Of a stretch of 28,955 nt of DNA, positions 6,601 to 27,384 are shown one piece after another. Each line of letters starts with the position of its first letter. Positions within the stretch are counted from its first letter, which is position 1. The notes under the pieces were generated by a model, which ran no database searches, was not told the origin of the DNA, and worked only from the letters and a program-made list of their open reading frames with translations. The stretch is from a virus. The DNA lies in the IMG/VR virus record IMGVR_UViG_3300012936_000114, positions 1 through 28,955 of that record; one strand, 5' to 3'. Both the position numbers and the translations under genes were made by a program.

Positions 6601-6601
6601 G

Positions 6602-9074: not shown

Positions 9075-9103
9075 TTGACAATCATTTGCTATTCATATAT
9101 AAT
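9075..9103 (+). promoter_or_regulatory. Near-consensus sigma70 promoter
   Basis: TTGACA at 9075-9080 and TATAAT at 9098-9103 are both perfect matches to the bacterial sigma70 boxes, with an ideal 17-base spacer. Transcription would start near 9110, giving a leader of about 17 bases that includes AGAGG (9117-9121) before the ATG at 9127. It differs in kind from the late motifs before the structural genes and heads the 23-gene array. Host polymerase could use it from the start of infection; this is inference. Confidence 0.75.
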
Positions 9104-9126: not shown

Positions 9127-9474
9127 ATGGACGAACAATTACAAAAAGCATTAGAGTTCTCTAATTTTACTGTAACACTAAACAATCAAAAACGTATATT
9201 AAAAGAAAAATATAACGAAGAGCTTGTGTTGTACTATAATAATGGTAAATTTAAAGTAACACAGTCATTTTTTACATTTGTGTCATCTCTTGTTTCTATG
9301 AAAATTGAACAAACAGTCATAGTTGATGATAATGATACTCCTATACATATTAATGATACAGTATTGTTTTTTGAAAATGTAAAACAGTCTTATGTAACTG
9401 CTACAAACAAATACTTACATGAATACCAAGAACTAAGTAAAAAGAGAAACGTACAGGGTCTAGTTGATGTCTAA
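9127..9474 (+). CDS. Conserved phage protein of unknown function, 115 aa
   Basis: The start ATG has AGAGG five bases upstream and sits just behind the sigma70 promoter. The protein opens with an apparent helix (MDEQLQKALEFSNF), has a central strand-rich part with a PIHINDTVLFFENV segment, and ends in a charged helical tail (EYQELSKKR). There is no signal peptide, membrane segment or catalytic motif. I have the impression that similar small proteins occur after fibre genes in marine T4-like phages, but I cannot name a function. It is first in the long array and its 3' end overlaps the next start by 8 bases. Confidence 0.6.
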   Translation: MDEQLQKALEFSNFTVTLNNQKRILKEKYNEELVLYYNNGKFKVTQSFFTFVSSLVSMKIEQTVIVDDNDTPIHINDTVLFFENVKQSYVTATNKYLHEYQELSKKRNVQGLVDV

Positions 9475-10285
9475 TGGTGTATTATGTTTTGCTAATAATA
9501 ATAATGAAATAGATTATATTAAGCAAGCTGAAAAACTTGCTTTAAGAGTTAAAAAATATTTAAATTTGCCTACATCTGTAGTAACTGCTACGCCAAACTT
9601 AGCAGACAATAAAATTTTTGATAATATTATTGAATCTAATACACTCACAGAAAATTACAAAAGATATCATGACGGAGATATTTCCTATCGCAACCTAATA
9701 TTTAATAATTTTGGTCGGCATAATGCTCTAGAACTTTCTCCATATGACAAAACGATAGTGCTTGATACAGATTATATTATTTGTAACGATATATTTAAAA
9801 TTGCTTTTGAACAACCTAATGACTTTTTAATTTATAAAAACGGTATCGATCTAGCAAGTTGGCGTCATCACTCAGAATTTGATTATATCAATAATAAAGG
9901 TATTCCTTTTTATTGGGCAACAGCATTTTATTTTGAAAAGACAGATAACGTAAAAATATTTTTTGATTTACTTAAAATTCTAATAAAAGATTGGAATTAC
10001 TATAAAACTGTTTTTGATATTGGCGCAAGGAACTTTAGGAACGATCATGTGTTTAGTATGGCCATACACTATATGAATGGCTTGACAGATAGTGATTGGG
10101 CCAAGCCTATGCCTGGAAATATGTATTATACGCTAGATAGAGATAGATTAAATGTAATGAAAGATGATATTTTACAATTTTTATTAGCGAAAGAAAATAA
10201 AAACGGAGAATATATATTTGCTAAGACTAAAGGACAAAATGTCCATGTAATGAATAAGTTTAGTCTGGAGAGATGTTATGAGTAA
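9467..10285 (+). CDS. GT-A glycosyltransferase-like protein, 272 aa
   Basis: The ATG at 9467 is preferred over the in-frame TTG at 9464. The N-terminus resembles a nucleotide-sugar-binding half, and residues 97-102 give VLDTDY, the DxD motif (D100, D102) that binds metal and nucleotide-sugar in GT-A enzymes. Further on, YWATAFYFEK and NDHVFSMAIH fit the acceptor-side region of GT8-like enzymes, and a late HVMNKF segment contributes a His near the C-terminus. It is similar in plan to the next gene. It probably transfers a sugar, but donor and acceptor are unknown. It overlaps both neighbours by 8 bases. Confidence 0.65.
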   Translation: MSNGVLCFANNNNEIDYIKQAEKLALRVKKYLNLPTSVVTATPNLADNKIFDNIIESNTLTENYKRYHDGDISYRNLIFNNFGRHNALELSPYDKTIVLDTDYIICNDIFKIAFEQPNDFLIYKNGIDLASWRHHSEFDYINNKGIPFYWATAFYFEKTDNVKIFFDLLKILIKDWNYYKTVFDIGARNFRNDHVFSMAIHYMNGLTDSDWAKPMPGNMYYTLDRDRLNVMKDDILQFLLAKENKNGEYIFAKTKGQNVHVMNKFSLERCYE

Positions 10286-11072
10286 AGGATATTTGTTAGT
10301 CGCAACTGGCAAAGAATACGTTACACAAGCATATCTTTGTGCTAAAAGTATTAGAGAGACACAAACTATTTCTAATGTAAGTATAGTGACCAGTGATATA
10401 GTGCCAAAAGAATACACAGATGTGTTTGATAAAGTAATTGATATACCTTGGTTAAGCGAGACAGAAAGTAAAAGCCTATTTTTAACAGAACAAAGATGGA
10501 AGGTTTTTCACGTTACGCCATACAATGAAACAGTAGTGCTAGATACCGATATGATTTTCATCGATGACGTAAGTCATTGGTGGCAATATATGTCAAGACA
10601 TAGTGTTTTACTTACATCTCGTGTAAACGATTACAAAAGAAATACTATTAAAGATGATTATTATAGAAAAGCGTTCACAGCAAACAACTTACCTAATGTA
10701 TATTGTGCTTACCATTACTTTAAAAAAGACGATATAGCCCTTGAATACTATAAAATGCTTGAATTAATTTGTAAAAACTACAAATATTTTTATAAATCTT
10801 ATTTGCCAAAGCAAACACCAACTCGAAGTAGCATGGATATTAATCATGCTATATGTATTCTAGCTACAGAGCTTAAAAATTATACAATAGATAGTTTATG
10901 GTTTACACATATGAAAAGTCATCTACAGTCTTTTACACAACCTACTGATTGTTGGTTAGATACTATTCCAATTTATGCTGATTCAAGCGATATAAAAATT
11001 GGAAATTACAAACAAGCAGGGATTTTACATTATACAGAAAATAAACTTAGTGAGGTATTGTTAGATGACTAA
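10278..11072 (+). CDS. GT-A glycosyltransferase-like protein, 264 aa
   Basis: The start is MSKGYLLVATGKEYVTQAYL, a Rossmann-like opening followed by a helix, as in GT8-like enzymes. The DxD motif is in VVLDTDMIFIDD (D89, D91). A late ILHYTENK segment gives a His in the position where such enzymes often have a C-terminal metal ligand. The layout matches the preceding gene, so the two are probably diverged paralogues acting in sequence or on different acceptors. No membrane segment is seen, so it should be cytoplasmic. Donor and acceptor sugars cannot be read from the sequence. Confidence 0.65.
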   Translation: MSKGYLLVATGKEYVTQAYLCAKSIRETQTISNVSIVTSDIVPKEYTDVFDKVIDIPWLSETESKSLFLTEQRWKVFHVTPYNETVVLDTDMIFIDDVSHWWQYMSRHSVLLTSRVNDYKRNTIKDDYYRKAFTANNLPNVYCAYHYFKKDDIALEYYKMLELICKNYKYFYKSYLPKQTPTRSSMDINHAICILATELKNYTIDSLWFTHMKSHLQSFTQPTDCWLDTIPIYADSSDIKIGNYKQAGILHYTENKLSEVLLDD

Positions 11073-11589
11073 ACAATATGTAAGTTTTATACAAGATACT
11101 GGTAGGATTTTTGAAGTAGGTCCCGAACCTAATTTAGAACACCAACATATAGAAGTATCAAATGATCTTGCTGACAAATTCAAGAGCTCTGAGTATACAT
11201 TTTCTGATTTTGTAGTAACTTACAACAGAACTAGGAAAAAGTTTTCAGTAAAACAAGTGACTGCCACGTCAGAAGAATTAATATTTAGAAAATTAAAAAA
11301 ATTACAACCAGATCATATGTATGATGTGTTGTTAAAGATTGACTTGAATAAAAATTTATGTTATATTAAAACTGATGATGAAATTTTAGATATAGTCAAC
11401 AACTCTAATCTGGATTTTGAAAAACAAGTGACTTTTAATTTTACTAAGAAAAATGATCCGCATGTATTATATGATACAGTAACTTTTGAAATAGGTAGCA
11501 ATACTAAAAAGCAAATGTTTATAAAAGATAATTACAGTGTGTTCACAGAAAATCAAGTTGCTGACTGTGTTTATTTGGAAGTAAAATGA
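11065..11589 (+). CDS. Protein of unknown function, 174 aa
   Basis: I do not recognise this protein. It begins MTKQYVSFIQDTGRIFEVGP, has alternating hydrophobic residues suggesting many beta strands, and a Lys-rich centre (RKLKKLQPDHMYDVLLKI). No Cys cluster, nucleotide-binding loop, signal peptide or membrane helix is visible. It overlaps the upstream glycosyltransferase by 8 bases and the next gene by 4, so it is co-translated with glycan genes. A beta-rich structural or carbohydrate-binding accessory protein is possible but unsupported. Confidence 0.5.
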   Translation: MTKQYVSFIQDTGRIFEVGPEPNLEHQHIEVSNDLADKFKSSEYTFSDFVVTYNRTRKKFSVKQVTATSEELIFRKLKKLQPDHMYDVLLKIDLNKNLCYIKTDDEILDIVNNSNLDFEKQVTFNFTKKNDPHVLYDTVTFEIGSNTKKQMFIKDNYSVFTENQVADCVYLEVK

Positions 11590-12470
11590 AACTACATATA
11601 GCAGAACAAGATATTATATTTTTATCATACGACGAACCCAATGCTGATAAAAACTATGCTGACTTATTGACCAAAGTGCCATGGGCAAAGCGTGTACATG
11701 GAGTAAAAGGTAGTGATGCCGCACATAAAGCCTGTGCTGAGTTATCTGAGACAGATAGATTTGTTACAGTTGATGGAGACAATACAATAGATCAGAAATT
11801 TTTAGATCAAGTTATCGATCTAGAAAACAATGAAAATTGTGTAGTTAGTTGGTGTGGTCAAAATGTAATAAATGGACTCATGTACGGCAATGGTGGTTTA
11901 AAATTTTGGCCCAAAGAATATGTGTTACGTATGAAAACACACGAAAACGCAGAAGAAAATAATATTCATGCCAAAGTTGATTTTTGTTGGGACGCACAAT
12001 ACTTACAAATGAAAGATTGTTTTAGCATAACACACAATAATGCTACTGCTTGGCAAGCCTGGAGAGCAGGATTTCGTGAAGGTGTCAAATTAGCATTAGA
12101 TAGAGGTGAACGAATCAGCGTAGAAGATTTTTACACAAAAAACCATTACAAAAATCTTCATATGCTTTATGTATGGCTTATGGTAGGTGCTGATGTAGAA
12201 AACGGCCAATGGGCAATACTAGGAGCAAGAGAAGGGCTGAACCTTACAATGTTGACTGACTGGGATTATATACAAGTAAGAGATTTTGACGTATTAAATG
12301 ATATGTGGGGAGGCAGAGATCAAATGCCCGAAGATGTCTTACACAATGAAATATTTACTCTTGGTGCTGAACTAACAAATAATTTAGACTTACCAATAAG
12401 CGTACAACCTTTGAATGAAGAACAAAGTGCGTTTTTTAAGACAGTGTACCAAGGACCACAGCGTGTATGA
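11586..12470 (+). CDS. GT-A glycosyltransferase-like protein, VDGDN type, 294 aa
   Basis: The protein starts with DIIFLSYDEPNADKNYADL, the first beta-alpha unit of a GT2-like fold, followed by a VPWAKRVHGVKGSDAAHKAC region and RFVTVDGDNTID, where D63-G-D65 is the DxD-type metal site. A GLMYGNGGLKFWPK segment follows, and then a long C-terminal part with TAWQAWRAGFREGVKLAL. The same plan, with VDGD and YGYGGVKLLP, recurs in the gene at 13821, so these are paralogues. It starts in a 4-base ATGA overlap. Glycosyl transfer is inferred from fold-level motifs only. Confidence 0.6.
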   Translation: MKLHIAEQDIIFLSYDEPNADKNYADLLTKVPWAKRVHGVKGSDAAHKACAELSETDRFVTVDGDNTIDQKFLDQVIDLENNENCVVSWCGQNVINGLMYGNGGLKFWPKEYVLRMKTHENAEENNIHAKVDFCWDAQYLQMKDCFSITHNNATAWQAWRAGFREGVKLALDRGERISVEDFYTKNHYKNLHMLYVWLMVGADVENGQWAILGAREGLNLTMLTDWDYIQVRDFDVLNDMWGGRDQMPEDVLHNEIFTLGAELTNNLDLPISVQPLNEEQSAFFKTVYQGPQRV

Positions 12471-13828
12471 TTGATCATAATTTAGTAAAACAGCGTTTGG
12501 ATAAGAAAGGCTGTGGGTTTTGTCTTGCTAAATGGACCCAGGTAACAATTCATTTAGGGTCAGGTATCAATCATAGTTGTCATCATGTAAAAGCACATCA
12601 TATTCCTTTAGACGAGTTAGCACTCAATCCTAATGCTTTACATAATACAGGATTTAAAAAAGATGTCCGCAAACAAATGCTTAACGGCGAACGTCCTGGC
12701 GAATGTGATTACTGTTGGCGTATTGAGGATAATACAGATAAGTTTAGTGATAGAGTGTATAAAAGTGCCGCACCATTTAGTTATGATGATTTTGATACAA
12801 TTAAAAAGTTTACAGGTGATGAAGATTTTTATCCGAGATATGTAGAAGTAAGTTTTGGAAATGTGTGTAATTTTAAATGTAGTTATTGTGGACCACCTTT
12901 TAGTAGTAAATGGACAGAGGAAGTAAAGTCTAGAGGTCCTTATGATCTTAAAACTTGGCAATATAATACAATAGTACCAGAAGATCAACCTATACCAGAA
13001 AGAGAACATAATCCATATATAGAAGCATTTTGGGAATGGTTTCCTGAAGCAGTCAAACATATGCACACGTTTAGAATTACTGGAGGAGAACCTTTACTTT
13101 CCAAACATACAAAACGTGTAATTAAATACCTTAAAGATAATCCGCAACCTAATTTAGACTTTGCTATTAACAGTAATGGGTGTCCACCAAATAATCTTTG
13201 GAAAGAATTTACAGAGTCAATAAAAGAATTGGAAGAAAATAATTGTATCAAAATATTTACTTTGTTTACAAGTGCTGAGAGTACAGGACCACAAGCAGAA
13301 TACAGCCGTCACGGAATGGACTGGTACATGTTCCAAGATAACATTGAATATTTTGCTAGAAATACAAATTCACGAATTAGTTTTATGTGCGCCTTTAATA
13401 TATTCAGCTTGCCTACATTTAAAAACTTTTTAGTATGGGTATTATATTTAAAGAAAACTTATACAGGAGAAAATAAATTTAACCAAAGGGTACTGATAGA
13501 TATTCCGTATGTCAGAAATCCCGCATTCCTTGACGTTAAAGTAGCAAACGAACAACTTGTAGATGATTATTTGAAACCTGCTTTAATTTTTATGGAGCAA
13601 AACACAGATAGGGAAGGTTTTAGAGATGTTGAAACGCCAAAACTAGCACGTATTGTAAAAGATGTAGAACATAGATTTGCTAATCCAGAAAAGTTTAGAA
13701 AAGAGCAGAAAGAAGCTCAAAATATGTTATTTAAATTTGTAATACAATATGATCGTAGACGCGGCACAAACTTTTTAAATACGTTTCCTGAGTATGAATT
13801 ATATTTCGAGGCTATAAAACGTGTATGA
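12467..13828 (+). CDS. Radical SAM protein with N-terminal twitch-like Cys region, 453 aa
   Basis: The radical SAM [4Fe-4S] motif is CNFKCSYC (C134, C138, C141), and the SAM-contacting GGEP motif is at 206-209. Ahead of it are five cysteines (C16, C19, C38, C80, C83; the last pair in GECDYCW) in a ~90-residue region that looks like an auxiliary cluster domain of the twitch/SPASM type placed at the N-terminus, the reverse of the usual order. This fits the twitch-domain radical SAM proteins known from phages and bacteria, whose substrates are generally unknown. The gene at 20070 has the same layout. It overlaps the previous stop by 4 bases and the next start by 8. Confidence 0.85.
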   Translation: MIDHNLVKQRLDKKGCGFCLAKWTQVTIHLGSGINHSCHHVKAHHIPLDELALNPNALHNTGFKKDVRKQMLNGERPGECDYCWRIEDNTDKFSDRVYKSAAPFSYDDFDTIKKFTGDEDFYPRYVEVSFGNVCNFKCSYCGPPFSSKWTEEVKSRGPYDLKTWQYNTIVPEDQPIPEREHNPYIEAFWEWFPEAVKHMHTFRITGGEPLLSKHTKRVIKYLKDNPQPNLDFAINSNGCPPNNLWKEFTESIKELEENNCIKIFTLFTSAESTGPQAEYSRHGMDWYMFQDNIEYFARNTNSRISFMCAFNIFSLPTFKNFLVWVLYLKKTYTGENKFNQRVLIDIPYVRNPAFLDVKVANEQLVDDYLKPALIFMEQNTDREGFRDVETPKLARIVKDVEHRFANPEKFRKEQKEAQNMLFKFVIQYDRRRGTNFLNTFPEYELYFEAIKRV

Positions 13829-14501
13829 TATTGTTTTTATAAGTTATTACGAAGCCGAAGCCCGTCAAAATTTTGACGATTTGTATAAAAGATTTAACAG
13901 TATAGGTGTGCTTGGAGATAGAGTTAAGCATGTAAAAAATGTGAAAGGTATTCATAATGCTCATTATGAAGCATCAAAACTAGCAAATACGTCATACTTT
14001 TTTGTTGTTGACGGAGATGCTGTAATTACACAAGATTTTACATTTGATTATTATACACAAGTAGAAGATATAGTTCATGTTTGGAAATGTAAAAATCCAA
14101 TTAATGATTTAGTATACGGTTATGGCGGAGTAAAACTTCTTCCTACATTACTTACAAGAAGTATGGATAAAACTACAGTTGACATGACAACAAGTATTAG
14201 TGATAAGTTTGAAGTAGTTAACGAAGTTTCTAACATAACAAAATTTAACACTGACGAATGGAGCACTTGGAAAAGTGCGTTTAGAGAATGTGCTAAATTA
14301 GCAAGTAAAACAATAGATAGACAAGAACAAGGAGAAACAGATGAAAGACTTAAAACTTGGACAACCGTGGGACACGATAGACCATTTGGGGAATATGCTT
14401 TGGCAGGCGCTACCGCTGGTATGGAGTTTGGCCTTTCTAGCGGGTCTGACCTTCGGCTAATAAATAATTTTGATTGGTTAAAGGAACAATTTAATGCCTA
14501 A
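13821..14501 (+). CDS. GT-A glycosyltransferase-like protein, VDGDA type, 226 aa
   Basis: It is a shorter paralogue of the protein encoded at 11586. It begins MYDIVFISYYEAEARQNFDD, then HVKNVKGIHNAH, then FFVVDGDAVI (D64, D66: DxD-type site), then DLVYGYGGVKLLP, mirroring the order of segments in the longer copy. The C-terminal part (TWKSAFRECAKLAS) also matches the WRAGFREGVKLAL stretch of that copy. The two paralogues flank the twitch radical SAM gene, suggesting linked substrates. It overlaps both neighbours by 8 bases. Function as a glycosyltransferase is probable, not proven. Confidence 0.6.
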   Translation: MYDIVFISYYEAEARQNFDDLYKRFNSIGVLGDRVKHVKNVKGIHNAHYEASKLANTSYFFVVDGDAVITQDFTFDYYTQVEDIVHVWKCKNPINDLVYGYGGVKLLPTLLTRSMDKTTVDMTTSISDKFEVVNEVSNITKFNTDEWSTWKSAFRECAKLASKTIDRQEQGETDERLKTWTTVGHDRPFGEYALAGATAGMEFGLSSGSDLRLINNFDWLKEQFNA

Positions 14502-15174
14502 AATAGTAACATATGGTTGTAGTTTTACACAAGGAGAAGGATTTTCTGATTGCTTTGTAGGTAAGGATTTACTTAGAGCAAAAGGAACTAGTAAGTACGC
14601 TTGGCCTACTTTGCTAGGAGATTTGATGGGCTATAGTATAGAGAACAATGGTATGTCTGGTAGTTCAAATAAAATGTTTTCTCATATGGCGCTAGAAAGA
14701 AAATGGAGTAAAACAGACGTAGCCGTTTTTATGTGGACATTTTGGCATAGAACAACAATTATAGAAAATCTTAATCTAACTAGATTTGACATATTACCAG
14801 GCAATATGTATGATTTTAAAAACTTTTCAAACCAACAAGTCCTTCAAATTAAGGCTTATTACAATTACGTATATCATCCTTTTGATATGTTTTACGATAA
14901 TATGCGAGATATTAATTTAGTCAAACATCATCTCGATGGTATGGGAGTCAAAAATTTCCATTATCATCTAGCACCTATTCCACATAAGGAACGAGGAACT
15001 GGACTTATTAAGAAAAGAAATATTGAAATAAATCTACCTTCTTGGAATAAAGTAAATTTTAAACATGCTATATTTGCTAACATAGATTTGGCAGATGATA
15101 AAAAGCATCCTGGACGTAAATCACAAGAAGCAATGGCAAACTCAATTTACGAAGATTTGACAGGTAAAATATGA
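14494..15174 (+). CDS. SGNH hydrolase-like protein, 226 aa
   Basis: Block I of the SGNH family is seen at the N-terminus as YGCSFTQGEG with the likely nucleophile S10. A block II-like NNGMSGSSN follows at ~50-60, and block V is D202-KK-H205 in DDKKHPG. Such enzymes act as esterases, or as acyl transferases on glycans. No signal peptide is present, so it should work inside the host cell. It is one of three SGNH proteins in the window and shares this type of start with the one at 17557. Location among glycosyltransferases suggests trimming or acylating a glycan, which is inference. Confidence 0.65.
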   Translation: MPKIVTYGCSFTQGEGFSDCFVGKDLLRAKGTSKYAWPTLLGDLMGYSIENNGMSGSSNKMFSHMALERKWSKTDVAVFMWTFWHRTTIIENLNLTRFDILPGNMYDFKNFSNQQVLQIKAYYNYVYHPFDMFYDNMRDINLVKHHLDGMGVKNFHYHLAPIPHKERGTGLIKKRNIEINLPSWNKVNFKHAIFANIDLADDKKHPGRKSQEAMANSIYEDLTGKI

Positions 15175-16010
15175 TTAATTTAGTAGTAACAAGTAAACCT
15201 GTAGATGGATTATTTTTATACAGTTACGAATACTGTTCCTTCTTAAATGAGAATAATATTGATGCTAGAGTAGTAGTAATTTGTCATAGAGACTTTACGC
15301 CACAAGATTATTTGTCTGTTATCCAACAGAAATATATTCACTGTAAGCATGTTTACTTTGATAATTTTGTAGCGTTGGATTCAGAAGTAGCAATGGTTCT
15401 TGGCAGAAGCATGATTACATTAAGTTATAAAAATTGGAGGGATTATACCCAAGATCAGCAAAGAGCTTTGACTAGTCTGTTTAATGGAAAAGTTATAAGT
15501 GTTTATTCTGAAAATCATCCTCAAGAATATCCTAAGGCTTTAGAATTTTTCAAGCCAATCGAAGTTATTGATTTATGTGATAAAGAAGTCTATCCTAACG
15601 GAATCGGAGCACATTTTGAAAAGCGTATAAATTTTGATATTTACAAACCTTATAAAGATGATGTCCAATTTAAACATTTGTTTTTTGGTACAACTCCTGA
15701 ATATTATGAAGCAGTCGAAAAAGTTTTACCTAATTATCCTGACCATGGGATCTTGACTTATGACGCAAAGTATGTTAATATAAAAAATAATAATATCTTT
15801 GTGCCTGTTGAAAATGTACTTGGTATATTTGATACCTATGTGTATACAAAAGCAACATTTGATCCAGCACCAAGGATAGTACAAGAATGTAAGTATTTTG
15901 GAAAAAGTATGATTTATGCTAGAGATAAAGACTTAGTAGACGGTGGCAGTGTGTATTGGACAAGAGACATACAGCAACCTGATATACAGTCTATTGTAGG
16001 TGCTTTATGA
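15171..16010 (+). CDS. Possible GT-B glycosyltransferase, 279 aa
   Basis: The N-terminus (INLVVTSKPVDGLFLYSYEY) and the central part lack a DxD motif. The C-terminal segment FDPAPRIVQECKYFGKSMIY followed by DGGSVYW resembles the donor-binding end of GT-B glycosyltransferases, where a Glu and a following small-residue region hold the nucleotide-sugar. At 279 residues it is shorter than typical GT4 enzymes (350-400), so it may be reduced or a different family. It has 4-base ATGA overlaps with both neighbours. I give the call as tentative. Confidence 0.4.
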   Translation: MINLVVTSKPVDGLFLYSYEYCSFLNENNIDARVVVICHRDFTPQDYLSVIQQKYIHCKHVYFDNFVALDSEVAMVLGRSMITLSYKNWRDYTQDQQRALTSLFNGKVISVYSENHPQEYPKALEFFKPIEVIDLCDKEVYPNGIGAHFEKRINFDIYKPYKDDVQFKHLFFGTTPEYYEAVEKVLPNYPDHGILTYDAKYVNIKNNNIFVPVENVLGIFDTYVYTKATFDPAPRIVQECKYFGKSMIYARDKDLVDGGSVYWTRDIQQPDIQSIVGAL

Positions 16011-16474
16011 AAAAATACTTAAATGAAAGATCTATGTGTGTTCATAACGGTGAATACATGACGCCAAGAAAATGGTTTGATAATTATGTAGGGTTTCAAA
16101 GAAACTATCCACAACTTGTACATATATCAAAATTTGATGATATAGAACTTTCTTTTGAAATGGAAAAAATAGAAGGTTTCGTGTTGTCTGACCTTGATAC
16201 ACTTAAAACACTAAGTATTAGAGAGCGTAGAAATATAGCTTCTAGTGTAATAATATTATGGGGTAAGATACATAATTTTACTATAAGCGATAAATTTACA
16301 TTTATACATAAGGATTTTTGCGTTAATAATTTAATGTATGATACTAAAAATAGACAAGTTAGACTAATTGATCCTGATTCATTCCATATAGTATGTCCTG
16401 GTTTAGATAGTGCTGTATTCTACGGTCCTTTTATAGACACAATGTATAATATGAAACAATGGGAAAAACTATGA
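16007..16474 (+). CDS. Miniature kinase-like (APH-fold) protein, 155 aa
   Basis: The segment FIHKDFCVNNLMYD has the HxDxxxxN catalytic loop of aminoglycoside/choline-kinase-like enzymes (H101, D103, N108), and LIDPDSF gives the metal-binding Asp (D122; D124). Upstream, LSFEMEKIEGFVLSDL looks like the hinge between lobes. A glycine-rich nucleotide loop and a clear N-lobe Lys are not seen, and 155 residues is far below the usual 250-300, so the N-lobe is strongly reduced. It could be a small-molecule or sugar kinase, or a binding-only relative. It overlaps the upstream stop and downstream start by 4 bases each. Confidence 0.55.
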   Translation: MKKYLNERSMCVHNGEYMTPRKWFDNYVGFQRNYPQLVHISKFDDIELSFEMEKIEGFVLSDLDTLKTLSIRERRNIASSVIILWGKIHNFTISDKFTFIHKDFCVNNLMYDTKNRQVRLIDPDSFHIVCPGLDSAVFYGPFIDTMYNMKQWEKL

Positions 16475-16821
16475 AAATAAAACCCAAGTGTTTAGCATTT
16501 GACACTAAAGATAACAAAGGTGCGGCATACACATCAGACGGATTTATGCTACCCTGTTGTTGGATGGATGACCCCCCTGTGTACAAGTATGTTAAAGAAT
16601 GTGGATTAAAAGATGATGAACTGTTGCTAACAAATCATGAAAGTTTAGATACAATTTTTACATCTGATCAATGGGAAAACTTTTTTCAAACATTATTGAA
16701 CAATCCTGAAAACGCATCTTACATGTGTAAAAAGAAATGTGGAATAGACATTGACAAGGAAAAAGTAATAGAAGAAGAACGTAGAGCAGTAAGGGAGCAA
16801 GCAAATGGCGCGGATTACTGA
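16471..16821 (+). CDS. Stand-alone Cys-rich twitch/SPASM-like protein, 116 aa
   Basis: The ATG at 16471, in a 4-base ATGA overlap, is preferred to the in-frame ATG at 16459. Six cysteines (C7, C29, C30, C44, C86, C90) are spread as in an auxiliary iron-sulfur domain: SDGFMLPCCW, then a spacer with SDQWENFFQTLL, then CKKKCG. This resembles the twitch/SPASM domain that is normally fused to radical SAM enzymes, yet here no CxxxCxxC is present. The next gene, overlapping by 17 bases, encodes a radical SAM core lacking such a domain. I infer that the two proteins form one split enzyme. The C-terminal ~20 residues are a charged helix. Confidence 0.55.
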   Translation: MKIKPKCLAFDTKDNKGAAYTSDGFMLPCCWMDDPPVYKYVKECGLKDDELLLTNHESLDTIFTSDQWENFFQTLLNNPENASYMCKKKCGIDIDKEKVIEEERRAVREQANGADY

Positions 16822-20077: not shown

Positions 20078-21446
20078 TAATCCTCTTCCAACACACATGA
20101 CAAAAGGCGGTCCTGGCGATGCCTACTTAGGTGATGGAAAAGTAGATACTAGTTCATGGTTTAAAGAAGTAGACTTACTTGAAGAACAAATTCGTAACCA
20201 AGAAATTTGGTTTTGTACAGCTCCATTCCAAATGATTTACACTGATACTGATGGCACACTGGCACCTTGTTCTTGGGCTGTCACAAGAGCGAAAATGACA
20301 GCGCCTAATGTAAGAAGAAATAAATTTGCTACTTATTTTGTTGAGGATGAAGAATTAAATCAAATGCGAAAGGAGATGACTACTCCTGGATCTGACTTAA
20401 AAACATGTGAGCGTATATGTGTAAATTGTCGTAGACAAGAAAAATTATACGGTAGATCTAGAAGACAAGCATCATTAAAGATACAATCAAACGATCCTGG
20501 ATTATGGCCGGAGATACGTAAAGCAGTTGAAATATATAAAGAAACTGGTAAAGGTAGAATTCAAAACAGAGTTTTTGAAGTACAAATAAAAGCATTTGGT
20601 AATCAATGTAACTTAGATTGTTTTATGTGTATTCCAGATGATAGTAGTACAAGATTAAAAACAATTAACAGTGATAAACTCAAAGATGAACAAGTTTTTC
20701 ACCCTAGACACAAAACAACTCCAATATCATTATTAAAAAGAGGACGTCTTGAAGAAATTGTTGATGAAATAGTTGCTATTGCTCCATATATCTATAATTT
20801 AAAATTTATAGGCGGCGAACCTTTAGTAATGAAACAATTTTACACTTTGTTAGAAAAAATTGTTGCGTCAGGTCATAGTAAAAACATGAGAGTAAAGTAT
20901 CAAACTAATATGTCAGTTTTAGAATTTGAAAGAGTAAAAGTTACAAAATTTATTCCTGAGTTTGAACTTTTCGAATTCACCGTATCTTTAGATGGCATAG
21001 GCAAAGCGAATAATTATATTAGACGTAGATCTGATTGGGACAATATAGTAAATAACATTAAAACTGTTAAAAAATATCCTAATGTAGAAATAAATGTAAA
21101 CGGCACTATCAGCTTTTTAAGTGTACTAAGGTTTTATGAACTTATTGAGTGGTTTCAAACAAATGAATTAGATCTAAATCAAATAAACTGGTCTAATATT
21201 AGAAATCCAAAAAAACTTATGGCTAATGTACTGCCAATAGAAATAAAAGAAAAATTACTTCCAAAGTATGAAGGTTTTTCAGATATTCAAAACATCCTCA
21301 AAGAAGATAATGGAGGATTAGATTATCAAGACAGTTTAAATTATCTAATAATGATGGATAATTATTACTTAGGAACTAAATGGGAATTACATTTGTTTGA
21401 TGTTTACCCCGAATTAGAAAAATATCATAATAGGAGAGCATCATGA
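20070..21446 (+). CDS. Radical SAM protein with N-terminal twitch-like Cys region, 458 aa
   Basis: The core motif is CNLDCFMC (C180, C184, C187) with KFIGGEPL (GGEP at 248-251). Five cysteines lie ahead of it (C49, C67, C113, C117, C120), with the APCSWA and CERICVNCRRQ segments typical of an auxiliary-cluster domain at the N-terminus. This is the same design as the 12467 gene but with little obvious sequence identity outside the motifs. The C-terminal part (SLDGIGKANNYIRRR) fits the second half of the radical SAM barrel. It sits between the aminotransferase and the second nitroreductase, overlapping them by 8 and 4 bases. Confidence 0.85.
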   Translation: MANNPLPTHMTKGGPGDAYLGDGKVDTSSWFKEVDLLEEQIRNQEIWFCTAPFQMIYTDTDGTLAPCSWAVTRAKMTAPNVRRNKFATYFVEDEELNQMRKEMTTPGSDLKTCERICVNCRRQEKLYGRSRRQASLKIQSNDPGLWPEIRKAVEIYKETGKGRIQNRVFEVQIKAFGNQCNLDCFMCIPDDSSTRLKTINSDKLKDEQVFHPRHKTTPISLLKRGRLEEIVDEIVAIAPYIYNLKFIGGEPLVMKQFYTLLEKIVASGHSKNMRVKYQTNMSVLEFERVKVTKFIPEFELFEFTVSLDGIGKANNYIRRRSDWDNIVNNIKTVKKYPNVEINVNGTISFLSVLRFYELIEWFQTNELDLNQINWSNIRNPKKLMANVLPIEIKEKLLPKYEGFSDIQNILKEDNGGLDYQDSLNYLIMMDNYYLGTKWELHLFDVYPELEKYHNRRAS

Positions 21447-22132
21447 GTGTGTTTGAAATTATAGAAAAAAGAAGACACGTCAATAAATTTAAAGAAGACA
21501 TATATCCGGAAAAAGAATTAGTAGAAGATTTATTATATAAATCTTGGAAAGTTACACCGTCAAAAAATAACTTTATGCCATATACATTACATGTGTTAGG
21601 TCCTGAATGTAAATTTCAAAAAAGAAAAGTTTGTCAGTTATCTATGTACAACAAAAAAACTACAAATGAAAGACATAATGTAATGGATATTGACGACTAT
21701 TCAGAAGATGGATTTAATCAGAATTTTGAATTTATTAGAACAGTTCCATACTTGATTGTTGCTGAACAGAGAGTATGTGAGCCAAATGATTTTATTAGAA
21801 ATAGTATTGAAGAAGGCAATAACATATATGAACAAATGCATGAAGAGTTGTTACACGACATTTTAAAAACTACTGCTTTTGAAGTTGGTATGTTTAAAGC
21901 AAACCTTTCTGCTTTATGCCTTGAGCAAGGTATAGATGTATCATGTATTGCTTGTACACCACATATGCCTAAGCCATGGCAAGATTATGGTTTTGATTAT
22001 ATCAAGTATCCAATTATACTTGTTATTGGACTAGGATATTGTGAAGAAGCTAGACGAGATGTAATGAAAAAAGAAGCAAGTGATCTTGATAAAAAACCTG
22101 AGCCGGAAACTATTTTAAGGTGGGTAAAATGA
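21443..22132 (+). CDS. Nitroreductase family flavoprotein, 229 aa
   Basis: The N-terminus FEIIEKRRHVNKFK is the standard nitroreductase opening, with R10-R11 expected at the FMN phosphate. TPSKNNFMPY at 38-47 is the FMN loop, and the C-terminal YIKYPIILVIGLGYCEE matches the final strand of the fold. It is a paralogue of the 18306 gene, better conserved at the start. Such enzymes carry out two-electron reductions or, in natural product pathways, dehydrogenations. It ends in a 4-base overlap with the next gene. Confidence 0.75.
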   Translation: MSVFEIIEKRRHVNKFKEDIYPEKELVEDLLYKSWKVTPSKNNFMPYTLHVLGPECKFQKRKVCQLSMYNKKTTNERHNVMDIDDYSEDGFNQNFEFIRTVPYLIVAEQRVCEPNDFIRNSIEEGNNIYEQMHEELLHDILKTTAFEVGMFKANLSALCLEQGIDVSCIACTPHMPKPWQDYGFDYIKYPIILVIGLGYCEEARRDVMKKEASDLDKKPEPETILRWVK

Positions 22133-22710
22133 AGAAAGAATTACAACGGAAAAATTTACTATTACTAATAGATTTTATAGGACATCCTGTATTAGGTTGC
22201 GAACATACAAATAATCTAAGATATAGTTATTTACAGGCTTTGCTTTTTAATGATCTTTTTGATTTGGTTGTAGTGTCAGATCATAAGCCGTGGCACGAAA
22301 AGGAAAGTGAACTTGAGCGGATAGTTAAAGTTGAAGGCAGGATACCTTGGATTAACATTGATTGTGATGCTGAGCCAACTGTACCAGATATTGTTAGTCG
22401 TGTAAAAGAAGAAGGTATAGACATCGAACATGTGATTATAGGAGGAACTAATACTTCAGGATGTTGTTTCCGCACAAGGTCATATTCAGCTAATAAATGG
22501 CACAAGTATGGTTATACTGTAAAATTCTTTTTACCTTTGTGTGCTGAATATCAAAGCCACGGAATAAATGAAGCAGAGAGAAATATGCACGCCTATGCCA
22601 TAATTGCTAAAGACATTAAAAAACAACAGCTACATAATATTGATATTGTATCAAATTTTAACGAGCTAAAACCGCCAAGAAGGCTTGGCAACCACAAGGA
22701 GACTTTTTAA
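22129..22710 (+). CDS. Isochorismatase-like cysteine hydrolase (tentative), 193 aa
   Basis: The ATG at 22129 (ATGA overlap) is preferred to the in-frame GTG at 22120. LLLLIDFIG gives an Asp (D15) on the first strand and HVIIGGTNTSGCCFRTRS gives a Gly/Thr turn leading to C112, the arrangement seen for the Asp and Cys of the isochorismatase-like fold. A third catalytic Lys cannot be assigned with certainty. Members hydrolyse or transfer amide-type groups, for example nicotinamide or carbamoyl compounds. It precedes the PP-loop gene by one base. The fold call is moderate, the reaction unknown. Confidence 0.45.
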   Translation: MKKELQRKNLLLLIDFIGHPVLGCEHTNNLRYSYLQALLFNDLFDLVVVSDHKPWHEKESELERIVKVEGRIPWINIDCDAEPTVPDIVSRVKEEGIDIEHVIIGGTNTSGCCFRTRSYSANKWHKYGYTVKFFLPLCAEYQSHGINEAERNMHAYAIIAKDIKKQQLHNIDIVSNFNELKPPRRLGNHKETF

Positions 22711-22711
22711 A

Positions 22712-23530
22712 ATGAAAATTACACACGGTAATCAAACTATTGATCTTTTTCCAGTTGAAGTGCCTGAAGTTTGTCCTATTTCACTATCAGGAGGATTAGA
22801 TTCAGCAAGTTTATTTTACCTAATATCAACACATTTCCCGCAAGTAAACTTAATACCGTATACATGTAGAGATTTGAATGCTCCACTAGATGCTGAGGCT
22901 GCCACTGCTATTATAGAATGGTTTCAAAAAAACTTTCCTAATAATAATATACCGGACATTGAGATTTTCAATTTTAATGATAAAGATGAATCTTTTGTTA
23001 CTTTTGAAGAATGTGATGCTACAATAGAACAATATCCTCAGTTCACAGGAATGCGTAGAAGACAAGTATCTAAAATTATACAAGTAGATAGAATTTCATG
23101 GAATTTAATGACACGATTTCCTAACTCAATTAGACTTGACGGCATGACTCGTAATCCACCTAAAGAAGAAATGGAAGCAGGAAATTTTTGGCAAAAAGCA
23201 GAAAGACGTAGAGATAAAGAGTTAGAAAAAGTTGAAGAGTGGAGACCAAATGTAAGTAATCCGCCATTGGCTATATACCAGCCATATGCTAATGTAGATA
23301 AAAAATTTGTAGCTGGTGTTTATCTTGAGAATGATTTGATGGATACACTTTTTCCTTTGACAAGATCCTGTGTAGGTACAAGTCCAAAATTGACAGATAA
23401 CGGAAAAAAAGAATGTCAAGAATGTTTTTGGTGTGAAGAAAAAGCATGGGCGTTTGATTATAATGTAAATAATTTACCTATTAGAGAAATGCGTATCTAT
23501 TCTAGCAAATATTTAAACAATAAGGTATAG
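22712..23530 (+). CDS. PP-loop ATP pyrophosphatase, QueC-like, 272 aa
   Basis: The start ATG at 22712 has a strong AAGGAG at 22696-22701; a TTG at 22685 in the same frame is less likely. The PP-loop is SGGLDS (26-31). Near the C-terminus, SCVG (C220) and CQECFWC (C235, C238, C241) followed by EEKAWAF match the zinc site and ending seen in QueC, which makes 7-cyano-7-deazaguanine. The middle differs from typical QueC and no QueD, QueE or FolE gene is in the window, so it may instead activate a carboxylate in another pathway. It is the only gene in the array with a 1-base gap upstream. Confidence 0.7.
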   Translation: MKITHGNQTIDLFPVEVPEVCPISLSGGLDSASLFYLISTHFPQVNLIPYTCRDLNAPLDAEAATAIIEWFQKNFPNNNIPDIEIFNFNDKDESFVTFEECDATIEQYPQFTGMRRRQVSKIIQVDRISWNLMTRFPNSIRLDGMTRNPPKEEMEAGNFWQKAERRRDKELEKVEEWRPNVSNPPLAIYQPYANVDKKFVAGVYLENDLMDTLFPLTRSCVGTSPKLTDNGKKECQECFWCEEKAWAFDYNVNNLPIREMRIYSSKYLNNKV

Positions 23531-23538
23531 TATAAACA

Positions 23539-24372
23539 ATGATAACACTTGAAGATTTAAAAGGTTCAGAATATAGAACAGTAGACTTTTATCTGTCAAA
23601 GAGTTGTAATAAGAGCTGTCATTATTGTACTGCTTGGACACTAGAAATGCGTAACTTACATACAGATATGGATCTTGTAAGAACAATTTTAGAAGGTCTT
23701 GCTCCTTACAAAACACGTATTTGTTTGTTAGGAGGAGAACCAGGACTTGTAAAAAATTTAGATGATATTATTGCTGAAATTAAAAAACATGAAAATCTTG
23801 TGCCACAAGTATTGTCAAACAGTTTAGTAAGAAAGTTTTATCCACATATTCTTGAAGATCCAGATATAATTTATATTGAGCACCTTGTGCTAGATTTTTA
23901 TGAAGATAAGATTGAAAAACTAGGCAACTGGCCTTTTTTACCTGAAAATAATAAAAATAATTATAATTTAATAATAGAGACACCTGGATATTTTAAATAT
24001 AGAGATAATTTTGACTTATCGGAAATAGATCATAAAAATACTGAATTCAAAGAATATAACAGCAGATCCCCAGACTTTTTTAGTGATCATGAATTAATAC
24101 AAGCACCTGAGATTGAACGTAGAATATGTGCTAAATTTCCACAAGTTCCTGTGTTTGATTTTGAAATAAGAAAAATTAGACATTGTAGTCGTAAAGCAAT
24201 TAATGGATCACGAGAGTTTGACATTACAAAAGAAAACATTACAAAAATGATGGATCATGACTTGTTCCAATTTGAAAAATATTGTACAGCATGTATGGAT
24301 ATTATTCCTCCACGTCCTAAAAAGCGTAGATTAGCAATACTTGAAAAAATAGCGTTTGAAGAGGTAGTATGA
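23539..24372 (+). CDS. Radical SAM protein with C-terminal Cys region, 277 aa
   Basis: The cluster motif is CNKSCHYC (C23, C27, C30), followed by CLLGGEPGL (GGEP at 65-68). After the core, C197, C216, C249 and C252 (KYCTACMD) form a likely auxiliary cluster region of the usual C-terminal SPASM/twitch placement. It is the fourth radical SAM gene of the array and the only one with C-terminal cysteines. It follows the PP-loop gene after an 8-base gap, the largest in the array, and overlaps the carbamoyltransferase by 4 bases. Substrate unknown. Confidence 0.85.
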   Translation: MITLEDLKGSEYRTVDFYLSKSCNKSCHYCTAWTLEMRNLHTDMDLVRTILEGLAPYKTRICLLGGEPGLVKNLDDIIAEIKKHENLVPQVLSNSLVRKFYPHILEDPDIIYIEHLVLDFYEDKIEKLGNWPFLPENNKNNYNLIIETPGYFKYRDNFDLSEIDHKNTEFKEYNSRSPDFFSDHELIQAPEIERRICAKFPQVPVFDFEIRKIRHCSRKAINGSREFDITKENITKMMDHDLFQFEKYCTACMDIIPPRPKKRRLAILEKIAFEEVV

Positions 24373-25838
24373 AACTTTATTCTGTAGCACTTAATATGCA
24401 TGATCATAACACTTATGACGGCGAAGTTCACTTACAAGTTGAACGTCATACTCGTGCTAAACACAATCTTAACTACAAAAATCCACATGATCCTAATCCT
24501 AGTAGAGAATTTTTTGACAATTTTGTTAAAACAGATGATAGTTTACTTTGTTTTACAATAAGTAATCTAGGACAAGAATTTGTAATTGATAAAATTGAAG
24601 AAAAGTTTGGTAAAAAGTTTTTAAAATGGAAACCAAAACATTTATGGGACTGTCTTGACGGAGATGATTTTTATTATATTGATCATCATCAAAGTCATGC
24701 CGCATATGCTTTACTAAGTTCTGGTTTCCCAGAATCAGATATCTTAGCGATTGACGGAAGAGGCTGGAACTATAATTGTGTCTTTATCAATAAAGATGGC
24801 AATATTAAAAATCTTACAAGAGAACTTACTGTTGGAGGTCTTTGGAATAGGCTTTCCCAAGATTTAGGCTTTGGTTATTTAGGTGCTGGCAAAGTCATGG
24901 GACTAGCAGGATACGGAAAATATAATCACAAAGTCCATGCTATGTTAGATTACTACTTACATAATGACAACAATCTACCTAAATGGTATCAAAAACTTTT
25001 AAAAGAGCATCCTAAAGAAGATGTAGCATATACCCTGCAGTATGTGACCCAAGAACTTATTAAGAAGCACGTATACCCCCTTAAAACAAGCGACAACCTA
25101 TGTGTAGCAGGGGGCGTAGCATATAATGGTTATATGAATGAAGAGTTTACTAAGCATTACACAAACGTACATATACCGCCGGCTGTTGGTGACGAAGGGC
25201 AAGCACTTGGAACATATATGCACGCTGACTATGTAATTAATGGAAATGTTCATGTTCCTAATGTTTATGCTGGCGCAGATTATGAATACACTTTACCTGA
25301 TACTTTTGAAGATTTAGATATTAAAAAAGTAGCACAAAGCATTGCTGATGGAAAAATTGTAGGATGGTTTCAAGGAAGATCTGAAAGCGGTAACAGAGCA
25401 TTAGGCAATAGAAGTATTTTAGCTGATCCACGTAATCCAGACATAAAGGATATTATTAATAAAACAATTAAAAAGCGTGAAGACTTTCGTCCCTTTGCTC
25501 CTAGTGTGTTAGAAGAACATTACCACAAATATTTTGATACTACACAACCTAGTCCTTTTATGAGTAGAATAGTAAAGTTAAAAGGTAAAGGAAACGTAGT
25601 CCCGGGCATAACACATGTGGATGGCACTGCTAGAATACAAACAGTCAATAGACAACAAAATGAAAAATTTTATGATCTAATAAATGAATTTTGTAACATT
25701 ACTGGTTGTCCAATGTTGTTGAATACTAGTTTCAATTGTCAAGAACCAATTGTAGAAACACCAGAGCAAGCAATTAACACTTTCAATAATACGGCATTAG
25801 ATTTATTAGTTATAAATGACAAAGTAATAGAAAAATGA
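24369..25838 (+). CDS. O-carbamoyltransferase, NodU/TobZ type, 489 aa
   Basis: This family transfers a carbamoyl group from carbamoyl phosphate via ATP to a hydroxyl, often on a sugar, as in TobZ and NodU. The Kae1-like half has VERHTRAKHN, DHHQSHAAYA (H106, H107, H110), LAIDGRG, GLAGYGK, VAGGVAYNGYMNE and VGDEGQALG. The C-terminal half begins at about 320 with GRSESGNRALGNRSILADPR, then KREDFRPFAPSVL, VDGTARIQTV and NTSFNCQEPIV. All expected motifs are intact, at a length somewhat below the usual ~550. It is one of the clearest calls and argues for a sugar-like or hydroxyl-bearing end product. Confidence 0.93.
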   Translation: MKLYSVALNMHDHNTYDGEVHLQVERHTRAKHNLNYKNPHDPNPSREFFDNFVKTDDSLLCFTISNLGQEFVIDKIEEKFGKKFLKWKPKHLWDCLDGDDFYYIDHHQSHAAYALLSSGFPESDILAIDGRGWNYNCVFINKDGNIKNLTRELTVGGLWNRLSQDLGFGYLGAGKVMGLAGYGKYNHKVHAMLDYYLHNDNNLPKWYQKLLKEHPKEDVAYTLQYVTQELIKKHVYPLKTSDNLCVAGGVAYNGYMNEEFTKHYTNVHIPPAVGDEGQALGTYMHADYVINGNVHVPNVYAGADYEYTLPDTFEDLDIKKVAQSIADGKIVGWFQGRSESGNRALGNRSILADPRNPDIKDIINKTIKKREDFRPFAPSVLEEHYHKYFDTTQPSPFMSRIVKLKGKGNVVPGITHVDGTARIQTVNRQQNEKFYDLINEFCNITGCPMLLNTSFNCQEPIVETPEQAINTFNNTALDLLVINDKVIEK

Positions 25839-26677
25839 TTGATAGAGAAAACTTTGATTATATAAAAAATATTGTTGGATTAAAAAAAGAATACGAGTTA
25901 AATGATTTGTTTGATATTTTAACAGTCATTAAAAACGACCCTAAAAAATTGTCTAGTGTGTTGATAGAAAAAGCACAGTCTTTAACGGTGCTACAGAAAA
26001 ATTTTGATGAAATAGTTAAATCCTTAAATGATAATGATTTTGTAAACTTTTATATACTTACAATTGAACTTATTGATAAAGATATCGATACTACTTTACT
26101 ATCTAATGTGCTTAAAGCAATAAAGCATTTACCCGACTCACAAAAAACAATTTGTGATTCTTTCAGTAATAACCAACTTGTTGCCAAAAAAACACTTATA
26201 AAAAACTTAGAACAGTATCTTAGTAAAGATAAAAAGGTAGCTATACTAGGTAGCTGGTACGCAAGTATACTTGTGCCTTTATTGTACAATAAAGTAAATG
26301 AAATTTGGCCTATTGATATTGATGAACAAGCAATTAAAATAGGTAAAAATATGTTTTTTTCAAACATAAAAAATATACAATGGGCTGTTGGAGATGTATT
26401 TGAAAAAACAATAGCAAGAGACTATAAAAAAATTAATGTTGTAATTAACACTTCATGTGAACATATGCGTCCTATGAAAGAATGGAAATATTGGCGACCA
26501 GAAATGTTATTTGCTTTTCAATCTAATAATATGTATGACATTGAAGGACATATTAATTGTGTTGATACTTTGAAGGATTTTTTAGATCAACTACCAGAAG
26601 GCTCAACAATATTACATACTGAAGAAATAGAAGACACAAGAGGCAAACGTTTTTTAGTTATAGGAAGAAATAAATGA
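25835..26677 (+). CDS. SAM-dependent methyltransferase-like protein, 280 aa
   Basis: A helical N-terminal domain (~1-125) is followed by a Rossmann-like core: KVAILGSWYASILVPLLY (residues 134-151) in the place of motif I, EIWPIDIDEQAIKIGK with the acidic D161/D163 expected to hold the SAM ribose, AVGDVFE, and VVINTSCEHM at ~202-211 as motif IV. Motif I lacks a full GxGxG pattern, so SAM binding is likely but not certain. It follows the carbamoyltransferase directly with a 4-base overlap and may methylate the same product. It is slightly longer than average because of the N-terminal helices. Confidence 0.6.
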   Translation: MIDRENFDYIKNIVGLKKEYELNDLFDILTVIKNDPKKLSSVLIEKAQSLTVLQKNFDEIVKSLNDNDFVNFYILTIELIDKDIDTTLLSNVLKAIKHLPDSQKTICDSFSNNQLVAKKTLIKNLEQYLSKDKKVAILGSWYASILVPLLYNKVNEIWPIDIDEQAIKIGKNMFFSNIKNIQWAVGDVFEKTIARDYKKINVVINTSCEHMRPMKEWKYWRPEMLFAFQSNNMYDIEGHINCVDTLKDFLDQLPEGSTILHTEEIEDTRGKRFLVIGRNK

Positions 26678-27384
26678 CAGAACCAAAATATTCCGTATCT
26701 TCTGCTCCAGCTATATATGATCAGATTGCTGACCAGTTATTTCCTAGTCAAGAGGACTTAGCATGTGAGTTACAATTACAAGTCATAGGAGATTGGGAAC
26801 CATTAGACTACAATATAGACCAAAATGAATACAAAGAGAATGTAAAAAGTTTTATAGAGAACGATTGGTTCAGACCTTTTCAACCTAGAGAAGGAGTGAT
26901 GAATAACAGAGAATCGGTTTTATTATATGGGCTAGAAGGCGATGAGCCTACAGCAGTCACTGGACTATCTCATGTACATGCTAAACTAGGATATAAGCCA
27001 AGAGAATACGAATTTAGTTTTCCAACACAAGCCGCCAAAAATTTTACATGTATGGAATCTGTATTTGATTATTATGATATGGGCAGATCTTTTTTTATTA
27101 GATTAAATGCTGGTGGATTTTATCCATGGCATAGAGATCATATGTATTTGAAAAGAGATACTATTAGACTAATTGCTTTTTTAGGAGATGCTAATCTAGA
27201 CGGTTTAGCCTGGGAAGTCAATGGACAACGTGTAGACGCTTTGCCTAATCATGTATATTATGTAGATACACGTAAGTCACATCGCCTACACGCACAAGTA
27301 GATGCTTGTGATATGGTTGTCATGAATGTAAAAAAAGATTGGCTAAATGTAAATCGAATACTTAGTCATTTAAAGTATAGATAA
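26674..27384 (+). CDS. Aspartyl/asparaginyl hydroxylase-like oxygenase, 236 aa
   Basis: The segment FFIRLNAGGFYPWHRDHMY gives an HxD pair (H153, D155), and DTRKSHRLHAQ gives H203 or H206 as the third iron ligand, in a beta-rich context with RLIAFLGDA and VYYVD strands. This matches the double-stranded beta-helix Fe(II)/2-oxoglutarate oxygenases of the aspartyl hydroxylase type. It would hydroxylate a peptide or small molecule. It is the last gene of the array and its 3' end overlaps the 3' end of the opposite-strand SGNH gene by 23 bases. No terminator separates them. Confidence 0.6.
   Translation: MTEPKYSVSSAPAIYDQIADQLFPSQEDLACELQLQVIGDWEPLDYNIDQNEYKENVKSFIENDWFRPFQPREGVMNNRESVLLYGLEGDEPTAVTGLSHVHAKLGYKPREYEFSFPTQAAKNFTCMESVFDYYDMGRSFFIRLNAGGFYPWHRDHMYLKRDTIRLIAFLGDANLDGLAWEVNGQRVDALPNHVYYVDTRKSHRLHAQVDACDMVVMNVKKDWLNVNRILSHLKYR

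Follow-up and report, generated by a model that had tools for sequence, protein, structure and literature searches.

In the excerpted description of Zaragoza-Solas et al. (2020, PMC7029224), the host recognition cluster (HRC) of pelagimyophages and cyanomyophages is a hypervariable island holding fibre genes, glycosyltransferases and radical SAM cassettes. The jumbo cyanophage S-SSM6a carries a 10-gene cluster with carbamoyltransferases, a methylase and a halogenase, for which polysaccharide decoration or a metabolite has been predicted (Iyer et al., 2021, PMC7824862), and mycobacteriophages glycosylate their own virion proteins (Freeman et al., 2023, cited in the excerpted PMC12619734). Here we analyse an array of 23 genes (g07 to g29) in the IMG/VR virus record IMGVR_UViG_3300012936_000114; the window is this entire record of 28,955 bases, probably a genome fragment. 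We propose, with a probability of roughly 0.4, that the array encodes a glycan-building pathway in two linked modules under separate control, and that its acceptor would most likely be a virion fibre protein, the host envelope being nearly as likely.

Organization of the gene array

The chain of 23 open reading frames (ORFs), all on the + strand and spanning 9127-27384, was recovered by ORF listing and translation as a previous sequence-only reading had described it. From g07 to g25 the successive junctions overlap by 11, 8, 8, 4, 4, 8, 8, 4, 4, 16, 17, 4, 4, 1, 8, 4, 13 and 26 nt, a gap of 8 nt separates g25 from g26, and the last three junctions overlap by 4 nt each. The overlapping junctions are 20 of 22 if g25 starts at the ATG at 22712 and 21 of 22 if it starts at TTG. 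Such tight overlap is, by itself, commonplace in phage operons. All 23 genes have homologues in other viral loci and, for the 12 genes tested against their closest relatives, most differences fall at third codon positions, which together indicate that the array genes are real and under selection at the protein level.

The array was compared with about 135 viral loci; locus counts come from truncated metagenomic contigs and simple ORF calling, and the searched collections may not contain the record itself or near-identical records. A conserved set, which the sequence-only reading had suggested looking for in other phages, was found in dozens of viral contigs and in the isolate Mosig. In these relatives module A (g07-g13) is often inverted with respect to module B (g14-g29), convergent with it and placed behind relatives of the fibre genes g05/g06 (L091, L095, L066, L075, L083, L085 and others). 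Because the modules can lie on opposite strands and two predicted promoter types stand at the joints, a single 23-gene operon was rejected and we regard the array as two linked modules, which appear to have partly separate histories. The earlier picture of a cluster of sugar- or antibiotic-type enzymes therefore holds for a conserved, co-ordered set tied to fibre genes, and gives way to two modules where it implied one unit.

The core of module B is seen best around g27. In 55 non-redundant g27 loci, several of which are incomplete so that the counts are lower bounds, g26 lies upstream in at least 44 and g28 downstream in at least 49, both always on the strand of g27; g21 is present in at least 39, g23 in at least 34, g18 in at least 32 and g15 in at least 31, and the core set as a whole is nearly always on that strand. 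Module A is in turn linked to fibres: a fibre-like ORF was identified by BLAST directly upstream of g07 in 20 of 24 distinct loci, and in the other four the upstream ORF has a g06-like N-terminus, as judged by eye. Across 12 loci carrying both modules, distances correlate between fibres and module A (r 0.94), fibres and module B (0.82) and the two modules (0.79); all three correlations are significant because of shared descent, so that only their difference is informative.

Across loci, g26 and g27 remain 70-81% identical to the window while the fibres drop to 43-74%. This stronger conservation of module B is in favour of host-envelope remodelling, in which the enzymes would alter lipopolysaccharide (LPS)/O-chain or another surface glycan and so block superinfection or the sticking of progeny to debris. 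We regard this as a serious if tentative possibility; it has been proposed for the glycosyltransferases of the pelagimyophage HRC, according to the excerpted account (Zaragoza-Solas et al., 2020, PMC7029224), and for jumbo-phage sugar clusters (Iyer et al., 2021, PMC7824862). On the other hand, it does not require the constant link between module A and a fibre gene.

Distribution and phage lineage

A contig of 261,806 bp carries the complete array, g25 aside, on one strand and in the same order as the window. Its gp23 is 71.5% identical to that of the Sinorhizobium jumbo phage Phosso and 66-68% identical to those of other jumbo phages, e.g., PA5oct. The window has no capsid gene and its lineage is deduced from relatives; since this capsid protein is closest to jumbo phages we read the lineage as jumbo-type, so the window probably belongs to, or shares this region with, a gp23-bearing jumbo myovirus group. 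The position behind fibre genes given by the sequence-only reading is retained, and the T4-like or SAR11 phage identity is unsupported for this lineage.

Among isolates, the module B core was found only in Pelagibacter phage Mosig. A scan of the genomes of 84,980 prokaryote species for g26, which relied on exact peptide patterns and can overlook distant relatives, gave only 3 contigs, each from a metagenome-assembled genome and each with the same module B core; these are most likely phage contigs binned with bacteria. The candidate origin as a captured bacterial O-antigen cluster was rejected on the outcome of this exact-pattern scan. The usual interpretation of phage glycan clusters is that they are captured host genes; a g26/g27 core common to two phage lineages, with g26 nearly absent from the 84,980 genomes, points instead to an old viral pathway. 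Scans of viral contigs returned no relative with g24 as query and one with g19 as query, and g11 and g12 had no match in 50,697 phage records.

Predicted promoters

The two modules are preceded by different types of predicted promoter (Table 1). Of 16 non-redundant relatives, 7 have a sigma-70-type sequence scoring 11/12 or better upstream of g07, compared with 11 of 581 other gene starts (Fisher p 6e-8). In one sublineage this predicted promoter is missing, and a conserved leader containing an inverted repeat stands there instead. The leader reads AGTTATAC...AGGAG..GTATAACT, with the ribosome-binding site in the loop of the repeat (L016, L018, L049, L075, L083 and G001).

The core of the T4 late promoter is ATAAATA. 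This motif occurs 7 times in the window, against 20 expected, and six of the seven precede a gene start by 15-43 nt (P 8e-10 for a spacing of 10-50 nt); these genes are g02, g05, g06, g14, g31 and g32, the motif of g31 being at 28744. In T4 the late promoters have a special -10 box and are read with gp55 (PMC6024815). Three of the four ATAAATA matches in 16.7 kb of the 262-kb relative precede g02, g05 and g06. The motif also lies ahead of g14 in locus L016 and ahead of g26 in L015, and the module B of Mosig has it as a divergent pair at its head. Some module B copies have a sigma-70-type match before g15, so that timing may differ between phages. A late-type promoter on module B speaks against envelope remodelling.

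Enzyme families of the two modules

Library matches above curated cut-offs were obtained for the radical SAM enzymes g12, g18, g22 and g26, for DegT g21 and for carbamoyltransferase g27, in agreement with the sequence-only reading. Across the array the catalytic residues are kept (the pyridoxal phosphate (PLP) lysine, CxxxCxxC, HHxxH, SGGxDS and DxD); several enzyme roles are based on family resemblance alone.

In module B, g21 matches Pfam DegT along with an invariant PLP lysine (E 2e-88, 297 bits vs. a cut-off of 19.8; K182), as expected for a DegT sugar aminotransferase. It scores below the equivalog cut-offs of PseC and LegC (196 bits vs. 423.5 and 186 vs. 420); these surface-sugar aminotransferases are nevertheless its nearest NCBIfam families, a point for envelope remodelling. 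Both carbamoyltransferase domains are found in g27 (Carbam_trans_C, E 1.3e-67, 227 bits vs. 27; Carbam_trans_N, E 1e-18, 68 bits vs. 24) and its HHxxH motif is invariant (H106, H107, H110), so that the conserved metal-binding histidines place it with the NodU/CmcH/TobZ carbamoyltransferases.

The glycosyltransferases named earlier were confirmed by predicted fold for g15 (GT-B), g11 and g13 (GT-A) and by the DxD motif for g08 and g09. The AlphaFold model of g15 (predicted local distance difference test, pLDDT, 92.4) aligns with PimA, BshA and TarM at Z about 14 along its whole length (PimA: Z 14.3, 249 aligned residues, 4.2 A), and the model thus predicts a GT-B/GT4-type enzyme with this fold along the whole chain. 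For g11 (pLDDT 91.9) residues 2-151 align with VIA (Z 10.9, 139 aligned residues, 3.0 A), the MobA/IspD nucleotidyltransferases scoring close (Z 9.3-9.7). Its top Foldseek match is the PBCV-1 capsid glycosyltransferase 2p6w (E 1.4e-4), which is suggestive only given the low TM-score. With D63xD65 invariant in the g11/g13 alignment, both proteins would have a GT-A domain with DxD. In g08/g09, D101 is invariant and D103 nearly so across 27 sequences. Finally, g12 matches NF033640 over its full length (296.7 bits vs. 170) with an invariant CxxxCxxC.

Other assignments of the sequence-only reading were recovered in weaker form. The nitroreductases g20 and g23 are found by profile only, the profiles for these two and for g28 having been built from their relatives; for g28 this gave a class I methyltransferase match, in line with the earlier methyltransferase-like call. 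The PP-loop protein g25 has invariant SGGxDS and C220/C235/C238/C241 (C..CxxCxxC) and a weak library match to QueC, and the assignments of g14 and g19 (SGNH) as well as g29 (2-oxoglutarate (2OG) oxygenase-like) are weak. In g24, G109, G114 and C115 are invariant, with weak matches to N-carbamoylsarcosine amidohydrolase and isochorismatase (E 0.3-0.8). A relative of g25 at L091:6782-9070 is part of an ORF about 760 aa long, which may be a fusion. The best NCBIfam match of g16 is Bud32 and g27 lies in the wider Kae1/TsaD fold family, which weakly recalls the Kae1-Bud32 pairing. A viperin or defence role for g26 was rejected (NF038283, 30.8 bits vs. 180; PADLOC pVip, 41 bits only).

The SPASM/twitch-type cysteine motifs of g12, g22 and g17/g18 are typical of peptide maturases, to which weak matches were also found. 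They would fit a modification of the kind seen in ribosomally synthesized and post-translationally modified peptides (RiPPs), in which four radical SAM/SPASM-type enzymes would modify residues in either a fibre or a small phage protein and the remaining enzymes would tailor these residues. We hold this to be quite improbable, as the array has no precursor-like short gene and includes several glycosyltransferases and a sugar-type aminotransferase.

Hypermodification of phage DNA, in which the enzymes would decorate hydroxymethylated or deazaguanine bases, seems highly improbable. It draws on the resemblance of g15 to the T4 DNA alpha-glucosyltransferase (Foldseek E 3.4e-4), which is shared with many other GT-B enzymes among its fold relatives, and on the QueC-like g25 together with a QueE-like ORF judged by eye in the 262-kb relative, whose array lacks g25. 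Furthermore, the thymidylate-synthase/hydroxymethylase family was unmatched in 6 of 7 module B carriers and TET/JBP exceeded the cut-off in none of 16 records (records that may be fragments), and the late-type promoter and the fibre link also speak against this explanation. ThyX occurs in some module B carriers and is absent from others. The QueE-like ORF lies at L147:9886-10785 (G001:253885-254784), with Pfam Radical_SAM below cut-off, and deazaguanine DNA modification is possible elsewhere in that genome.

Missing functions and soluble enzymes

As the sequence-only reading had noted, Pfam searches matched no transporter, nonribosomal peptide synthetase (NRPS), polyketide synthase (PKS) or deoxythymidine diphosphate (dTDP)-sugar gene in the window. 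The 23 proteins gave no Pfam or NCBIfam match to a scaffold enzyme (NRPS, PKS, terpene, RiPP precursor or cyclitol synthase), and no self-resistance gene was matched in the window, g16 being merely a short APH-like fragment. Judged by its predicted proteins, the array would not be a classical biosynthetic gene cluster, with its core scaffold enzyme and its transporter or self-resistance gene. The mix of tailoring enzymes could still suggest a small metabolite able to diffuse and resembling an antibiotic, toxin or cofactor, of the sort made by bacterial biosynthetic clusters and predicted for the S-SSM6a cluster (PMC7824862). Such a product is improbable here: the window has no scaffold enzyme, exporter or resistance gene, the array location is tied to fibres, and a metabolite would be of little use in a short lytic infection.

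None of the 23 array proteins has a membrane-like segment (the highest 19-residue Kyte-Doolittle mean is 1.47). Without hydrophobic segments there is no flippase, ligase or polymerase, and soluble acceptors fit better than a whole surface polysaccharide. Envelope remodelling is weakened by the same result, the array having no membrane protein, lipid-carrier transferase, flippase or ligase.

Table 1. Predicted features of the window (positions in the 28,955-base record; roles from motif, profile or fold resemblance)
Feature	Position	Strand	Description
Fibre/structural block g02-g06	2082..9067	+	Precedes array; Pfam Collar E 1e-16 in g03; PHROG tail matches; peptidase G2-like g05
Sigma-70-type promoter	9075..9103	+	TTGACA-N17-TATAAT, 12/12 match between g06 and g07, start of module A
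g07	9127..9474	+	Small protein, first gene of module A
g08	9464..10285	+	GT-A/GT8-like glycosyltransferase; DxD
g09	10278..11072	+	GT-A/GT8-like glycosyltransferase related to g08; DxD; PHROG 1903
g10	11065..11589	+	Module A member; relatives in 21 loci
g11	11586..12470	+	GT-A-fold glycosyltransferase by predicted fold; DGD motif
g12	12467..13828	+	N-terminal twitch radical SAM enzyme; NCBIfam NF033640
g13	13821..14501	+	Shorter paralogue of g11, by alignment
T4-late-type promoter core	14460..14466	+	ATAAATA ahead of g14, start of module B
g14	14494..15174	+	SGNH-like hydrolase, weak; motif GCSFTQG alone, no library match
g15	15171..16010	+	GT-B glycosyltransferase, module B core
g16	16007..16474	+	Small APH/Bud32-like kinase fragment; weak matches; rare in relatives
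g17	16459..16821	+	Stand-alone SPASM-like Cys-rich partner of g18; six Cys; g18-linked in relatives
g18	16805..17560	+	Radical SAM enzyme; Pfam Radical_SAM 36.9 bits vs. 29.5 cut-off
g19	17557..18309	+	SGNH-like, weak; partial DUF6473 below cut-off, E 1e-4
g20	18306..18998	+	Nitroreductase family; profile match 3gfa, E 9.6e-5
g21	18998..20077	+	DegT/DnrJ/EryC1 aminotransferase with intact PLP lysine, module B core
g22	20070..21446	+	N-twitch radical SAM enzyme; NF033640 287.5 bits vs. cut-off 170
g23	21443..22132	+	Nitroreductase family; profile match 3gag, E 2e-7
g24	22120..22710	+	Possible isochorismatase-like hydrolase, tentative
g25	22712..23530	+	PP-loop (QueC-like) enzyme; weak QueC match
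g26	23539..24372	+	Radical SAM enzyme, module B core, virtually virus-only
g27	24369..25838	+	NodU/CmcH/TobZ-type O-carbamoyltransferase, module B core
g28	25835..26677	+	Class I methyltransferase-like, module B core; MJ0882, E 2e-4
g29	26674..27384	+	Possible 2OG/Asp-Arg hydroxylase-like, weak; 27%/87 residues to Mosig_00081 Asp_Arg_Hydrox

In the surroundings of the array, g02 (2082-2693) is 53% identical to proteins of the jumbo phages Phosso and Atu_ph07, and g30 (GDSL-like) and g31 (2OG-like by eye), at 27362-28719 on the - strand, converge on the array end. In the 262-kb relative, a phage-borne importer lies beside the array on the opposite strand (L057:14737-18211; G001:237368-240842); it consists of two ABC permeases (BPD_transp_1) and an extracellular solute-binding protein (SBP_bac_8, E 2.6e-39), and is adjoined by two B12-binding radical SAM proteins and an ATP-grasp protein (L057:12053-14744 and 19640-21112).

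Proposed pathway and its acceptor

We propose that module B, expressed from the late-type promoter at 14460, would be the cytoplasmic source of an unusual activated sugar, or of a group resembling a sugar. The DegT enzyme g21 would put an amino group on a host-derived keto-sugar, the radical SAM enzymes g17/g18, g22 and g26 and the nitroreductases g20 and g23 would alter its redox state or carbon skeleton, g27 could add a carbamoyl and g28 a methyl group, and the GT-B enzyme g15 would transfer the product. Module A, from the sigma-70-type promoter at 9075, would supply the GT-A transferases g08, g09, g11 and g13 and the N-twitch radical SAM enzyme g12, presumably fitted to the fibre gene that precedes them. 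A fibre protein is favoured as acceptor because of the constant neighbourhood of module A, its co-divergence with the fibres, the exclusively soluble enzymes and the late-type promoter of module B.

Several points weigh against this proposal. The promoters are predicted from sequence matches, and the sigma-70-type promoter of module A suggests early expression, which would mismatch late-made fibres and suit envelope remodelling. Neighbourhood alone could explain part of the co-divergence between fibres and module A, and peripheral soluble glycosyltransferases can also modify the LPS core. No nucleoside diphosphate (NDP)-sugar synthase, dehydratase or epimerase was found in the window, which leaves the host or another part of the genome as the source of the substrate. 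In addition, the assignments of g24, g25, g28 and g29 are family-level guesses.

A broader reading, in our judgement rather doubtful, is that a virus-only pathway with no counterpart in cells is common to marine phages of the jumbo and T4 types and makes a hitherto unknown carbamoylated, methylated amino-sugar-type group for their own tail fibres, the fibre genes and their dedicated transferases evolving as pairs. Mosig, which carries the core, is in culture on Pelagibacter ubique HTCC1062, so that the product of the core can be sought directly. If the fibre is the acceptor, receptor binding by these marine phages would hinge on a post-translational modification that is invisible to sequence-based host prediction.

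Comparison with known systems

Like the HRC, the array is part of a variable island in which fibre genes accompany glycosyltransferases and radical SAM cassettes. The excerpted HRC description (PMC7029224) gives neither the two-module order nor the aminotransferase-radical SAM-carbamoyltransferase-methyltransferase core, and the lineage of the window differs in being jumbo-type, judged by the capsid of its relative. The HRC borders VrlC and gp14 were not found in the 28,955-bp record; in Mosig, the module B relatives lie between the fibre genes and VrlC, which stands just beyond module B. Genes 00082-00090 of Mosig EXVC030M (MT647606) form one gene run of module B relatives, which includes a nitroreductase and has a late-type promoter at its head (identities: g15 51%, g18 31%, g21 49%, g26 55%, g27 58%, g28 43%); this region differs from the window in having no relatives of module A, g22, g24 or g25.

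The S-SSM6a cluster is also multi-gene, with carbamoyltransferases and a methylase; unlike the array, it has a halogenase, cupins and HAD phosphatases, and no DegT or radical SAM enzyme is named in it. In the stretch examined of S-SSM7, a near relative of S-SSM6a, only the carbamoyltransferase resembles a window gene (31%), and the regions examined of S-SSM7, S-CAM8 and HTVC008M matched no array enzyme except g27. With the TobZ/NodU/CmcH O-carbamoyltransferases g27 shares both domains and the HHxxH motif, and it differs in its phage context. Compared with mycobacteriophage virion glycosylation, as far as the excerpted source describes it, the array has a much larger tailoring set, and its acceptor is a predicted one. 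Phage sugar clusters are thus an established type; within the open-licence literature searched, and as far as our tools reach, the composition of this array, its two-module structure and its virus-only core appear to be new.

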